This document shows, in pieces, positions 8,627-16,415 of a stretch of DNA of 64,000 bases. The translations under genes and the position numbers were made by a program. The number at the start of each line of letters is the position of its first letter. The first letter of the stretch is position 1. The stretch is taken from assembly GCF_023806485.1 (NCBI RefSeq), contig NZ_JAMSLR010000013.1, positions 1,045-65,044 on the forward strand, in the 5' to 3' direction. The stretch is from Thermalbibacter longus (lineage in GTDB: Bacteria; Chloroflexota; Chloroflexia; Thermomicrobiales; Thermomicrobiaceae). The notes beneath the pieces were generated by a model. That model saw only the letters and a program-made list of their open reading frames with translations. It was not told the origin of the DNA and ran no database searches.

Positions 8627-9619
8627 TCAGCTCCTCTCCAGGTTCTCCTCGCTGATGGACGCGTCCTGCCTGGCCAGCAGCTCGATCGCCTCCTCCAGCG
8701 AGACCTCCTTGAAGTGGATGTAGCTCCAGCCGGGCACCATCTGCCCCAGCTTCCACATCGCCGCCTTGGCCACCACCGCGTTGCAGATGAAGCCGCCGAG
8801 CGTCGGCCCATCGATGCAGAGGATGATCGGCTGGTCGCCACAGACGTTGACCGCGCCGACCGGGTAGCCGTTGTCGATGATGTTCGAGGGGTGCCCGCCA
8901 CCAGCACCGCCGCTGGTGCGCGCCCACTGCCACTTGTAGATATCGAGCCGGTAGCCGGTACGGTTGGAGGCGGCGTCGAGCTTCCAGTGGTGGCTGAAGA
9001 AGGCGTCCATGTCCTCCCTGGTCATGTAGTCGGGGTCGGCCTGGGGCCCGCGGGTAGCCTCGACCTCCCAGACCTCGTTGTAGCCGGCGTAGCCCGGTAT
9101 CAGGTCGGCCCGAACCCGCCGGTCGATCACCTGGCCGAGGTCGACGCGCGGCTCGCCCAGCGGCAAGCGGTCGCCCGCCTGGAGCTTGCGGCCGTCGAGG
9201 CCCCCGACGCTGCCAGGCAGGTAGGTCGACCGGCTGCCGAGCACTGGCGGCACGTCGATCCCGCCGCTGACCGCGAGGTAGGTGCGGAATCCCGCCCCCT
9301 GCAGATAGTCGAACTCCAGCACGTCGCCTGGCCGCGCCCGGTAGCTGCGCCAGAGCACGACCGGCTGCCCGTTGAGCCGGGCAGCCATATCGGCCCCACA
9401 GACGGCGAACGCCCGCTCGTCGTGGAAGGCGACCACCAGGCCCCCAGCGGTGATCTCGAGCCCGGCCGCCCCGGGCGGGTTGCCGACCAGCACGTTCGCG
9501 AAGCGGAACGCGTAGTCGTCCATCGGCCCGGCCGGAGCGAAGCCGAGCGAGAGCATGCCGATCCGGCCGGGATAGTCTTGCACCGTCGTCTCGAACCCGC
9601 CGTTGCGCACTTCCAGCAT
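8627..9619 (-). CDS. biotin-dependent carboxyltransferase subunit (PxpC/AHS2-like, urea-carboxylase type)
   Basis: A 330-residue carboxyltransferase-domain protein. It starts with VQDYPGRIG and GFAPAGPMDDYAF and ends with VGAVNVCGDQPIILCIDGP, GGFICNAVVA and AMWKLGQMVPG. These C-terminal motifs match the second half of the urea carboxylase CT domain as I know that family, more closely than the shorter KipA. The ATG at 9619 follows GGGAGGAG; upstream codons are not homologous. It lies 43 bases after the partner half and would form one CT unit with it. Confidence 0.8.
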   Translation of the reverse strand: MLEVRNGGFETTVQDYPGRIGMLSLGFAPAGPMDDYAFRFANVLVGNPPGAAGLEITAGGLVVAFHDERAFAVCGADMAARLNGQPVVLWRSYRARPGDVLEFDYLQGAGFRTYLAVSGGIDVPPVLGSRSTYLPGSVGGLDGRKLQAGDRLPLGEPRVDLGQVIDRRVRADLIPGYAGYNEVWEVEATRGPQADPDYMTREDMDAFFSHHWKLDAASNRTGYRLDIYKWQWARTSGGAGGGHPSNIIDNGYPVGAVNVCGDQPIILCIDGPTLGGFICNAVVAKAAMWKLGQMVPGWSYIHFKEVSLEEAIELLARQDASISEENLERS

Positions 9620-9662
9620 CGCCCAGTTCTCCTCCCTGTGATCTCGCCGCGCTCCCGGGTCG

Positions 9663-10658
9663 TCAGGGGATAGGGACGCGCGTGGCCGCCTCGGCCTGGT
9701 GGCGGCGGAACGCCTCCGCCTCCTCGCGCACGCTGTCGAGGAACCGGAGGTACTCGCCGACATCGAAGGTCGCTGTCTCGTCGATCACGTACTGGTAGGT
9801 GCCGTCGTAGACGGCCTGGATCATCGCCTCCAGCTCCTCGTCGGTGACGCGCGGGCGGAAGCGCAGCCGGTCACCGGGCCGGAGCAGCACCGGGCTCTCG
9901 CGGAAGGCGGGGTTCCGCTGCTGCGGGTCGTAGATCGGAACTGTGTGGGCGAAGATCTGGTAGCCGCCGGCCGACTCGACCGGGTAGATGGCGAGGCACG
10001 GCCCAGCGATGCCGATCGTGCCGGCCGGTGTCCAGTGCCGGGTCGGGTTGTACTTGGGGATAACGACGGCCCGGCGCGGGTCGAGCGGGTAGGCGAAGGG
10101 GAGGCCAGGGAAGAAGCCGAGCGCCGCGTTCCACCAGTCGGTCGCCATGATGTACTCGAAGAACTCCTCCTTGTCGCGCAGGCCGTTGTACATGGCCGCG
10201 TACTCGGAGTTCGTGCCGTTGATGATGTTAGGGGCATCCGCGCGCTGGTACTGGACGTAGCGGGCGATCGCCTCGCGCGTCCACTTGTCGTCGAATGCGA
10301 TCGGCAGCTCGACGATGCGGCTGGGGACGACCAGGTCATGGAACGGGGGCAATTCCTCGTACTGGGCCTGGACGAACTCGATGAGCCGCTTTGCCGGCAG
10401 CACGCGGCTGTCGTAGTTGATGAGCACGCTGCGCAGCGCCGGGATCACCTCGATCAGCCCCTCGGGCCTGTGGCGCTTGATAGCGTCGTCGAGCCCGAGG
10501 ACGCGGAAGCTCATCGTGAGATCGAAAACCATGTCTCCGAACTCGACGAGCAGGAAGCTATCGCCGGCGTTCCGGTAGACCACCCCCGGCCGCCCGTTGT
10601 GCTCGGGGAAGGTGGCCAGGATCACCCCGGATGGCTGGGCGGCGGTATGCTCGGTCAT
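9663..10658 (-). CDS. biotin-dependent carboxyltransferase subunit (PxpB/AHS1-like, urea-carboxylase type)
   Basis: A 331-residue protein, about 100 residues longer than usual PxpB/KipI. The core has GFFPGLPFAYPLDPRR, then IPKYNPTRHWTPAGTIGIAG and ESAGGYQIFAHT. The KYNP-R-WTP pattern is typical of the first half of the urea carboxylase CT domain. It should pair with the following subunit to move the carboxyl group from carboxybiotin to an amide-like acceptor (inference). The start at 10658 follows GGAAGGAG. The biotin carrier gene ends 43 bases before it. Confidence 0.78.
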   Translation of the reverse strand: MTEHTAAQPSGVILATFPEHNGRPGVVYRNAGDSFLLVEFGDMVFDLTMSFRVLGLDDAIKRHRPEGLIEVIPALRSVLINYDSRVLPAKRLIEFVQAQYEELPPFHDLVVPSRIVELPIAFDDKWTREAIARYVQYQRADAPNIINGTNSEYAAMYNGLRDKEEFFEYIMATDWWNAALGFFPGLPFAYPLDPRRAVVIPKYNPTRHWTPAGTIGIAGPCLAIYPVESAGGYQIFAHTVPIYDPQQRNPAFRESPVLLRPGDRLRFRPRVTDEELEAMIQAVYDGTYQYVIDETATFDVGEYLRFLDSVREEAEAFRRHQAEAATRVPIP

Positions 10659-14826: not shown

Positions 14827-15080
14827 TCGCTTCCCTCCCTTCCCGGTTCACGGCAACAACGCGTATGAGAAGCCAACCCTCGCAGGTGCACTCGGCTGCC
14901 GAACCGACCTGCTCGGTGACGCTGCTGTGCCGGATCCGATGCCGCGGGTGGAATACGTTTAAAGTATGCTAAGCGCTGGCTGTGAGGGTGTCAAGATACG
15001 AGTGAGTAGACATCCTCTGCGCCTGTGCAAATCAGGCCAGTGTCGACGACGCGGGCAAGCAGGAAGAGAGCAGGATCGGC

Positions 15081-16415
15081 ATGTTCCGGAAGGTGCTGGT
15101 GGCCAACCGCGGGGAGATCGCGGTGCGGGTGATGCGTGCCTGCCGGGAGCTGGGGATCGCCACCGTGGCCGTCTACTCGGAGGCGGACGCGACGGCGCTG
15201 CACGTGCGCTATGCCGACGAGGCCCGCTGCATCGGGCCGGCGGTGGCCACCCGGAGTTACCTGAACATCGAGGCCCTGGTGCAGGCGGCGCGAGAGACCG
15301 GGGCCGAGGCGGTTCACCCCGGCTACGGCTTCCTGGCCGAGAACGCCGCCTTCGCCCGGGCCTGCCGGGAGGCCGGGCTGGTCTTCATCGGCCCCAGCCC
15401 GGAGGCGATCGAGCTGATGGGAGACAAGGCGGCGGCGCGCACGCTGGCACGCGAGGCGGGGGTACCGGTCGTGCCAGGCACTCCGGACAAGGTCTCGACC
15501 GAGGAGGCGCTGGCTGCAGCCGAGGAGATCGGCTTCCCCTTGATGGTCAAGGCTGCGGCTGGGGGTGGAGGTCGCGGGATCCGGGTCGTCGAGTGCCGGG
15601 AAGAGCTAGCCGGCGCGGTAGCGATCGCGGCCCAGGAGGCGCAGGCGGCCTTCGGCGACGGCGCGCTCTACCTGGAGCGATACCTGAGCCGGCCACGGCA
15701 CATCGAGGTGCAGGTGCTGGGGGATGAGCACGGGAACGTGCTGCATCTGTTCGAGCGCGAGTGCTCGATCCAGCGTCGCCGGCAGAAGCTGCTCGAGGAG
15801 GCTCCCTCCCCCGCGCTCACCCCGGAGCTGCGGGAGCAGATCTGTGCCGCGGCGGTGCGGCTGGCTCGCGCCGCTGGCTACACCAGCGCCGGCACGCTCG
15901 AGTTCTTGCTGGATCAGGAGGGGCAGTTCTATTTCCTGGAGATGAACACCCGCATCCAGGTCGAGCACCCGGTGACCGAGCTGGTGACCGGGGTCGACCT
16001 GGTGAAGGAGCAGATCCGGGTGGCGGCGGGGGAGCCGCTGCGGTGGCAGCAGGAGGAGCTGGAGCTGCGCGGGCATGCCATCGAGTTCCGGATCAACGCG
16101 GAGGATCCGGAGATGGGCTTCTTCCCCTCGCCGGGGGTGGTGGAGGCGCTGGAGCTGCCGGGCGGGCCGGGGGTGCGGGTGGATCACGCGCTCTATGCCG
16201 GGTACGAGATCCCGCCGTACTACGACTCGCTGATCGCCAAGCTGATCGTGTGGGGGGTGGATCGGGAAGAGGCGCTGGCGCGGGGCCGGCGGGCACTGGC
16301 TGAGCTACGGATCGAAGGGATCGCGACGACCGCGCCCTTCCACCGCCGGCTGCTCGGCGACCCGGCCGTCATCGCCGCCGACTACCACGTCCAGTTCCTC
16401 GACGGGCGGGTCTAG
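15081..16415 (+). CDS. accC: biotin carboxylase (AccC-like)
   Basis: A 444-residue ATP-grasp biotin carboxylase that carboxylates biotin on a carrier using bicarbonate and ATP. It opens FRKVLVANRGEIAVRV, has the glycine loop KAAAGGGGRGIRV (about residue 156), HIEVQVLGD, ECSIQRRRQKLLEE and FLEMNTRIQVEHPVTE (about 288-303). The length is right for AccC. It is divergent from the molybdenum hydroxylase/CT/BCCP operon, which lacks this one subunit, so it probably serves that carboxylase, with acetyl-CoA carboxylase as the alternative. TACGTTTAAAG and a GGAAGAGAGCAGG leader precede it. Confidence 0.9.
   Translation: MFRKVLVANRGEIAVRVMRACRELGIATVAVYSEADATALHVRYADEARCIGPAVATRSYLNIEALVQAARETGAEAVHPGYGFLAENAAFARACREAGLVFIGPSPEAIELMGDKAAARTLAREAGVPVVPGTPDKVSTEEALAAAEEIGFPLMVKAAAGGGGRGIRVVECREELAGAVAIAAQEAQAAFGDGALYLERYLSRPRHIEVQVLGDEHGNVLHLFERECSIQRRRQKLLEEAPSPALTPELREQICAAAVRLARAAGYTSAGTLEFLLDQEGQFYFLEMNTRIQVEHPVTELVTGVDLVKEQIRVAAGEPLRWQQEELELRGHAIEFRINAEDPEMGFFPSPGVVEALELPGGPGVRVDHALYAGYEIPPYYDSLIAKLIVWGVDREEALARGRRALAELRIEGIATTAPFHRRLLGDPAVIAADYHVQFLDGRV

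Follow-up and report, generated by a model that had tools for sequence, protein, structure and literature searches.

We analysed a 64,000-nucleotide stretch of the Thermalbibacter longus genome (contig NZ_JAMSLR010000013.1, positions 1,045 to 65,044; hereafter, the window), in which genes for a molybdenum (Mo) hydroxylase adjoin those of a split, biotin-dependent carboxyltransferase (CT). The genome, from the family Thermomicrobiaceae, is 99.9% complete. Seven tightly spaced genes run on the minus strand from 14826 down to 7853, encoding MoM, MoS, MoL, the biotin carboxyl carrier protein (BCCP), CTcd, CTab and PxpA. An eighth, for AccC, is divergent from them. Profiles from Pfam and NCBIfam assign all of the named parts to families unambiguously:

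15081..16415, plus strand: AccC-type biotin carboxylase (PRK08591, 700 bits; PRK12833, 690 bits)
13954..14826, minus strand: MoM, medium FAD subunit of the Mo-hydroxylase (PF00941, PF03450; FAD_binding_5 and CO_deh_flav_C)
13446..13922, minus strand: MoS, small 2x[2Fe-2S] subunit with eight cysteines (PF01799, PF00111; Fer2 and Fer2_2)
11054..13438, minus strand: MoL, large molybdopterin subunit (PF20256, PF02738, PF01315; MoCoBD_1/2 and Ald_Xan_dh_C)
10702..10956, minus strand: BCCP, an 84-amino-acid PRK07051-type biotin carrier with the biotinylation motif VMKT (PF00364, Biotin_lipoyl, 46 bits; NF005457, 118 bits, cut-off 87)
9663..10658, minus strand: CTcd, PxpB / urea carboxylase subdomains C-D (PF02682, CT_C_D, 138 bits)
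10053..10055, minus strand: codon of the KYNP lysine within CTcd (aligned to 5i8i, Lys1605 of K. lactis urea amidolyase; column count)
8627..9619, minus strand: CTab, PxpC / urea carboxylase subdomains A-B (PF02626, CT_A_B, 290 bits; start placed from the ribosome-binding site)
7853..8623, minus strand: PxpA, a LamB-YcsF family hydrolase and the proposed ring-opening subunit (PF03746, 310 bits; NF003814, above cut-off)

A preliminary description made from the DNA letters alone had recognized all eight components, including the two CT halves by their motifs (KYNPTRHWTP and GGFICNAVVAKAAMWKLGQ), and the profiles confirm each of them. Its span of 8627-16415 covers seven of the genes, with PxpA lying just outside. 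The start codons of CTab (about 9619), CTcd (about 10658), MoL (13414-13438) and MoS (13922-13946) are inside longer open reading frames. A profile search found PF02682 only once in the genome, which therefore has no separate ordinary PxpB. The absence of an allophanate hydrolase, also claimed earlier, is borne out genome-wide: no protein exceeds the TIGR02713 cut-off, and six amidase-like matches fall below it.

The block is conserved. It occurs in ten Thermomicrobiaceae genomes from three genera, with the Mo-hydroxylase and AccC genes beside the CT genes in every one, and the nine other genomes share 69-94% (MoL) and 68-93% (AccC) identity with the window. Gene order is identical in the regions checked, and AccC always adjoins MoM in the relatives. 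Two other genera of the family, as sampled, have no CT genes and no orthologues of MoL or AccC. The arrangement is therefore not a matter of chance, and the linkage that the preliminary description had proposed to look for in relatives is complete (10 of 10 genomes with CT genes). In Thermomicrobium, a ribose-type ATP-binding cassette (ABC) transporter, named TorT, ATPase and permease by NCBI, is placed between MoL and BCCP, and in T. roseum bioY follows pxpA. The window genome has no real TorT homologue, as the only matches are to the leader segment of the query sequence. A contig from a distant Chloroflexi metagenome-assembled genome (MAG) carries the same CT type with PxpA, and a gene for a TorT-like binding protein lies there in divergent orientation; any Mo genes would fall off this contig. 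In the searches made, the window CT lineage was seen only in Thermomicrobiaceae and this MAG.

Several lines of evidence place the CT halves with urea carboxylase and not with the PxpBC subunits of 5-oxoprolinase. CTab scores 342.1 bits against the urea carboxylase model TIGR02712 versus 184 bits against PxpC (NF045499), and CTcd scores 258.7 bits versus 69 bits against PxpB (TIGR00370). Among solved structures, K. lactis urea carboxylase is the closest (3va7 for CTab; 5i8i was aligned for CTcd). A tree of concatenated CT halves from 53 taxa places the window clade (100/100) as the sister group of urea carboxylase (96/99), followed by a split Shinella set (99.3/100). Canonical PxpBC sequences are set apart in a clade of their own (100/100), and a third group holds the biotin-linked cassette that is common in haloarchaea and proteobacteria. 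Single-half trees are consistent with this apart from the CTab tree, in which the Shinella set is closer to urea carboxylase; CTcd alone supports the sister relationship at 100. Constraining the window clade to group with PxpBC was rejected (approximately unbiased (AU) test, P = 0.0015), as was grouping with the cassette (P = 0.00016), with 5,000 replicates, below the number advised by the program. The earlier view of the halves as urea-carboxylase-like is thus upheld by both the tree and the constraint test. Split UCT genes were already flagged as unstudied in a 2011 survey (PMC3199775). In Shinella PSBB067 (L049:11807-14218), the CT and BCCP genes are separated by those for a kinase and a class III aminotransferase, which match one half each of PRK06148 and suggest another substrate for this related split CT.

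The catalytic residues are informative. In the alignment, the KYNP lysine of CTcd is the counterpart of Lys1605 in K. lactis urea amidolyase, described as in all likelihood the essential general base of that enzyme (PMC5770610). Lysine fills this column in 29 of 29 biotin-linked or urea-carboxylase CTs and arginine in all 23 PxpB sequences, with threonine in one orphan. A second loop reads GFFPGLP in 8 of 8 members of the window clade and GDVYLGAP in urea carboxylases (V-Y-L-G in 5 of 5). At this loop, which from its position is putatively substrate-binding, the window clade resembles lactam-type enzymes. The window CT therefore keeps the carboxyl-transfer apparatus but has, at the putative pocket, a sequence other than that of urea carboxylase.

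These features bear on whether the genes encode a split carboxylase for urea, guanidine or another open-chain nitrogen compound such as an acyclic amide, with PxpA or an unlinked amidase replacing allophanate hydrolase. The shared parts (biotin carboxylase, BCCP and CT subdomains A to D), the CT lineage and the retained general base are all as such an enzyme would have them. However, urea carboxylase is a single chain, whereas the window parts are spread over four genes with best partial scores of 535.7, 342.1 and 258.7 bits against the TIGR02712 cut-off of 1303.85, with PxpA in place of allophanate hydrolase and a Mo-hydroxylase attached for which no part in urea use is apparent. No UAAP1, UAAP2 or urea transporter is present, unlike beside real urea carboxylases. 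With the GDVYLGAP loop and allophanate hydrolase both missing, urea and guanidine are disfavoured as substrates, and we regard the whole explanation as improbable.

AccC and BCCP both exceed the NCBIfam cut-offs of acetyl-CoA carboxylase models, and they could in principle serve fatty-acid synthesis and lie beside the CT genes by accident. The genome contains further AccC copies, one adjoining a fabD-like gene, as well as a separate 166-amino-acid AccB-sized frame and an accB-accC pair, so fatty-acid synthesis probably does not depend on the window AccC. This answers a check posed in the preliminary description, namely whether AccC serves only that purpose. Moreover, the AccC orthologue is confined to genomes with the CT cluster among the sampled Thermomicrobiaceae. 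We consider it very improbable that AccC and BCCP serve fatty-acid synthesis and lie beside the CT genes by accident. Their CT partner in the window is of the urea-carboxylase type.

The three-subunit hydroxylase has the Mo-pterin, 2x[2Fe-2S] and FAD subunits and the catalytic glutamate (motif GIKGIGEGG) of the xanthine oxidase family. The best match of MoL in the PDB is QorL of quinoline 2-oxidoreductase (1t3q; 729 bits, versus 616 bits for the nearest chain resembling carbon monoxide dehydrogenase (CODH)). Its catalytic loop, VGAFRAVGWTAAQ, contains AFRAVGW in place of the AYRCSFR of CODH, as had been noticed earlier. In an alignment, the MoL loop NKAPVGAFRAVGWTAAQTARE parallels NKCPIGAYRGVGFTAGQIARE of QorL, and the two share the pattern GA(Y/F)R.VG(F/W)TA. 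The MoL tree, for which the QorL and CoxL sequences were retyped from a printed alignment with a few residues possibly off, splits the window clade and QorL from the remaining sequences (99.1/98). This grouping agrees with the earlier assignment of the hydroxylase to an N-heterocycle type, and placement in the quinoline 2-oxidoreductase branch is supported.

By comparison with QorMSL and nicotine dehydrogenase, which have the same subunits, loop pattern and catalytic glutamate, the window enzyme is predicted to hydroxylate beside a ring nitrogen. In the known pathways of these two enzymes, cleavage of the product ring falls to oxygenases or a C-C hydrolase, and a biotin enzyme is not known to take part. 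The hydroxylase might instead be an aldehyde oxidase or a CODH-like enzyme, with the biotin module acting on a different branch of the same catabolism. Its top NCBIfam matches, both below cut-off, are to glyceraldehyde dehydrogenase and group-5 CODH models, but MoL falls below all CODH cut-offs, QorL leads the solved structures by over 100 bits and has the same loop pattern, the tree unites the two and the CO loop is absent; we therefore doubt this alternative strongly.

Pairing of a Mo-hydroxylase with a biotin-linked CT is found outside the Thermomicrobiaceae. The five-gene cassette PxpA-BCCP-AccC-CT-CT is common in Alphaproteobacteria and haloarchaea, which were sampled non-systematically along with other proteobacteria; other phyla were reached through a plasmid collection. 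The cassette shares its five predicted functions, its biotin linkage and the general-base lysine with the window set, sometimes accompanied by TorT-ABC genes and a Mo-hydroxylase. It differs in its CT lineage, usually has no Mo-hydroxylase and is known by NCBI names only.

In the haloarchaeon Natrinema gelatinilyticum, a Mo-hydroxylase adjoins PxpA, two CTs, BCCP and AccC. In Rubrobacter indicoceani, MoL, BCCP, PxpA, CTab and CTcd share one orientation and accC is divergent, as in the window. In Diaphorobacter sp., a single run of 11 genes reads PxpA-BCCP-AccC-CT-CT-TorT-ATPase-permease-FAD-FeS-MoL, an order shared by Sulfitobacter alexandrii. A TorT-like ABC transporter thus accompanies the set in Diaphorobacter and Sulfitobacter as well as in Thermomicrobium and, as the binding protein, in the Chloroflexi MAG. 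MoL proteins of the first three organisms are 30-43% identical to that of the window, and all four fall in other branches of the MoL tree. Because the CTs of these clusters are also of the cassette type, the partnership arose more than once. The Rubrobacter cassette lies on a 52-kb plasmid, where a further complete Mo-hydroxylase set is found at a distance of about 8-10 kb (L122:1-3732). A Pseudonocardia match (H83) proved to be an unrelated, polyketide-associated acetyl-CoA carboxylase.

This recurrence can be set against the most serious alternative, in which the biotin/PxpA module would act as a 5-oxoprolinase dependent on biotin, salvaging pyroglutamate that arises spontaneously, and the function of the adjacent Mo-hydroxylase would be unrelated. 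PxpA is a member of the ring-opening subunit family of 5-oxoprolinase; the window protein is 39% identical to E. coli PxpA, retains the motifs invariant among seven PxpA sequences and by this subunit belongs with PxpABC, with which the window set also shares a split CT_A_B / CT_C_D pair and, as proposed here, ATP-dependent lactam opening. Many such cassettes, in addition, have no Mo-hydroxylase nearby. PxpB and PxpC, however, are biotin-independent, have arginine at the general base and form their own clade, in contrast to the lysine and the adjacent BCCP and AccC of the window, whose CTs the AU test separates from PxpBC. Each of the ten Thermomicrobiaceae genomes has the Mo genes linked to those for BCCP and the CTs, and four further groups show the pairing with Mo-hydroxylases of other lineages. 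On balance, we consider a 5-oxoprolinase with an unrelated neighbour unlikely.

A natural substitution provides what we regard as the strongest functional evidence. In the MoL tree, Diaphorobacter and Sulfitobacter form a clade (100/100) with Aureimonas, Rhizobium TH2 and Rhizobium K1/93. In the latter three, the hydroxylase adjoins a hydantoinase/oxoprolinase pair in place of the biotin module. The best NCBIfam matches of the Aureimonas pair are caprolactamase CapA and CapB, both under cut-off. RidA-family genes occur near both Rhizobium clusters, and the Aureimonas cluster adjoins an omega-type aminotransferase and a PxpA. Caprolactamase CapAB opens its lactam with ATP and bicarbonate and may do so via a carboxylated lactim (PMC8453981). 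The hydantoinase/oxoprolinase family is not homologous to the biotin module and uses no biotin, yet replaces it beside orthologous Mo-hydroxylases, and ATP- and bicarbonate-dependent lactam hydrolysis is what we propose for the window. As two unrelated ATP-dependent amide openers share the slot beside one hydroxylase, the PxpA/biotin module would be expected to open the cyclic amide made by that hydroxylase, implying by analogy that it may be an ATP-dependent lactam hydrolase.

Taken with the CT lineage and the branch of the hydroxylase, these observations make it probable that the eight genes, conserved in thermophilic Thermomicrobia, form a module that breaks down an N-heterocycle or a cyclic imine, in which Mo-dependent oxidation precedes biotin-dependent opening. 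What is directly observed is the gene content and its conservation, the lineage of the CTs, the retention of catalytic residues and the recurrence of the linkage, and from these we infer all of the chemical steps. The Mo-hydroxylase would insert water-derived oxygen beside the ring nitrogen to give a cyclic amide (a lactam or cyclic ureide). AccC, with ATP and bicarbonate, would carboxylate biotin on BCCP, and the two CT halves, acting as one urea-carboxylase-type carboxyltransferase, would place the carboxyl group on the nitrogen of the amide. Hydrolysis of the activated N-carboxy-lactam by PxpA would then give an amino acid and CO2. ATP would thereby pay for an otherwise unfavourable ring opening. 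The scheme is the ring counterpart of urea carboxylase and allophanate hydrolase, with N-carboxylation again followed by hydrolysis, and would to our knowledge be the first biotin-dependent lactamase. The scheme of hydroxylation, carboxylation on biotin and PxpA opening put forward in the preliminary description gains partial support from the CT lineage, the Mo branch, the linkage and the CapAB substitution; within it, the substrate, N-carboxylation itself and the order of the steps are proposals.

With about even confidence, we extend this to a novel strategy of catabolism, put together on several independent occasions, that combines Mo-hydroxylation, biotin-dependent N-carboxylation and PxpA ring opening. 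In it, the biotin module would be interchangeable with ATP-dependent CapAB, and the lactam carboxylase of Thermomicrobia would descend from the line of urea carboxylase.

Our leading, tentative suggestion for the substrate is 1-pyrroline, converted via 2-pyrrolidone to 4-aminobutyrate (GABA), or a close homologue. This fits Ruegeria TM1040, in which the cassette and TorT-ABC genes are close to a curated GABA transaminase and succinate-semialdehyde dehydrogenase. A hydantoin-type cyclic ureide is a rather less likely candidate, and fits a dihydropyrimidinase-like gene in the neighbourhood of the Haladaptatus cassette. Neither neighbourhood settles the Thermomicrobia substrate. In T. roseum, about 10 kb downstream, lies a class III aminotransferase gene that was considered as a GABA transaminase; its product scores as a relative of glutamate-1-semialdehyde aminomutase and was not used as evidence. 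Elsewhere in the window (2960-3874, minus strand) is a PuuE-like protein of the polysaccharide-deacetylase fold, possibly a cyclic imide/ureide hydrolase, that is 36% identical to one encoded about 7 kb from the Haladaptatus CT cassette.

Several points weigh against a heterocycle pathway of this kind. The neighbours that point to 4-aminobutyrate sit in other organisms, and the cluster in the window's own genus contains no transporter. Among cassette loci opened regardless of Mo, about 1 in 12 (Diaphorobacter) had a Mo-hydroxylase; the remaining Mo-linked cassettes were found by crossing hit lists. Because the CT lineage of the Thermomicrobia differs from that of the other Mo-linked clusters, the latter are analogues and not orthologous pathways, and the CapAB substitution was observed with a different Mo-hydroxylase lineage in organisms other than Thermomicrobia. 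We found no biochemistry for any member in the literature.

The system is real, conserved and multi-gene; its parts are known, and we found no published description of the combined pathway in the open-access literature. The earlier claim of an unprecedented set should be narrowed to the Mo pairing and the CT lineage of the window, which are unusual, as the five-gene cassette is common. The new parts are thus the urea-carboxylase-type carboxyltransferase and the Mo pairing, the latter being rarer than the cassette itself. The analysis offers a testable function for a very common, functionally unassigned cassette that databases name acetyl-CoA carboxylase, allophanate hydrolase or 5-oxoprolinase. 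If it is correct, biotin enzymes activate cyclic amides besides urea and CoA esters, the Lys/Arg position would tell from sequence which members depend on biotin and which do not, and Thermomicrobium would be a source of a thermostable system for opening lactams.

Other catabolic genes occur in and around these loci. The window contains a lignin-monomer-like catabolic cluster (22078-34381, plus strand) that encodes a thiamine diphosphate enzyme, a branched-chain-type binding protein and ABC genes, together with a syringate/3-O-methylgallate O-demethylase (NF047633, 639 bits, below cut-off), a PIG-L-fold protein, a LigK/PcmE-type aldolase and a catechol 2,3-dioxygenase. A split pair of phosphoenolpyruvate (PEP)-utilising and PPDK_N genes adjoins accC in Thermomicrobium (L048:2312-5243), and the PEP-utilising member is present in one g3 genome (L111:18176-19993); the pair is absent from the window's genus and was dropped as a part of the system. 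In a g3 genome, a 4-hydroxyphenylacetate meta-cleavage cluster (HpaI-like, HpaG, HpaE, HpaB and HpaD; L111:543-6475) lies immediately beside pxpA.

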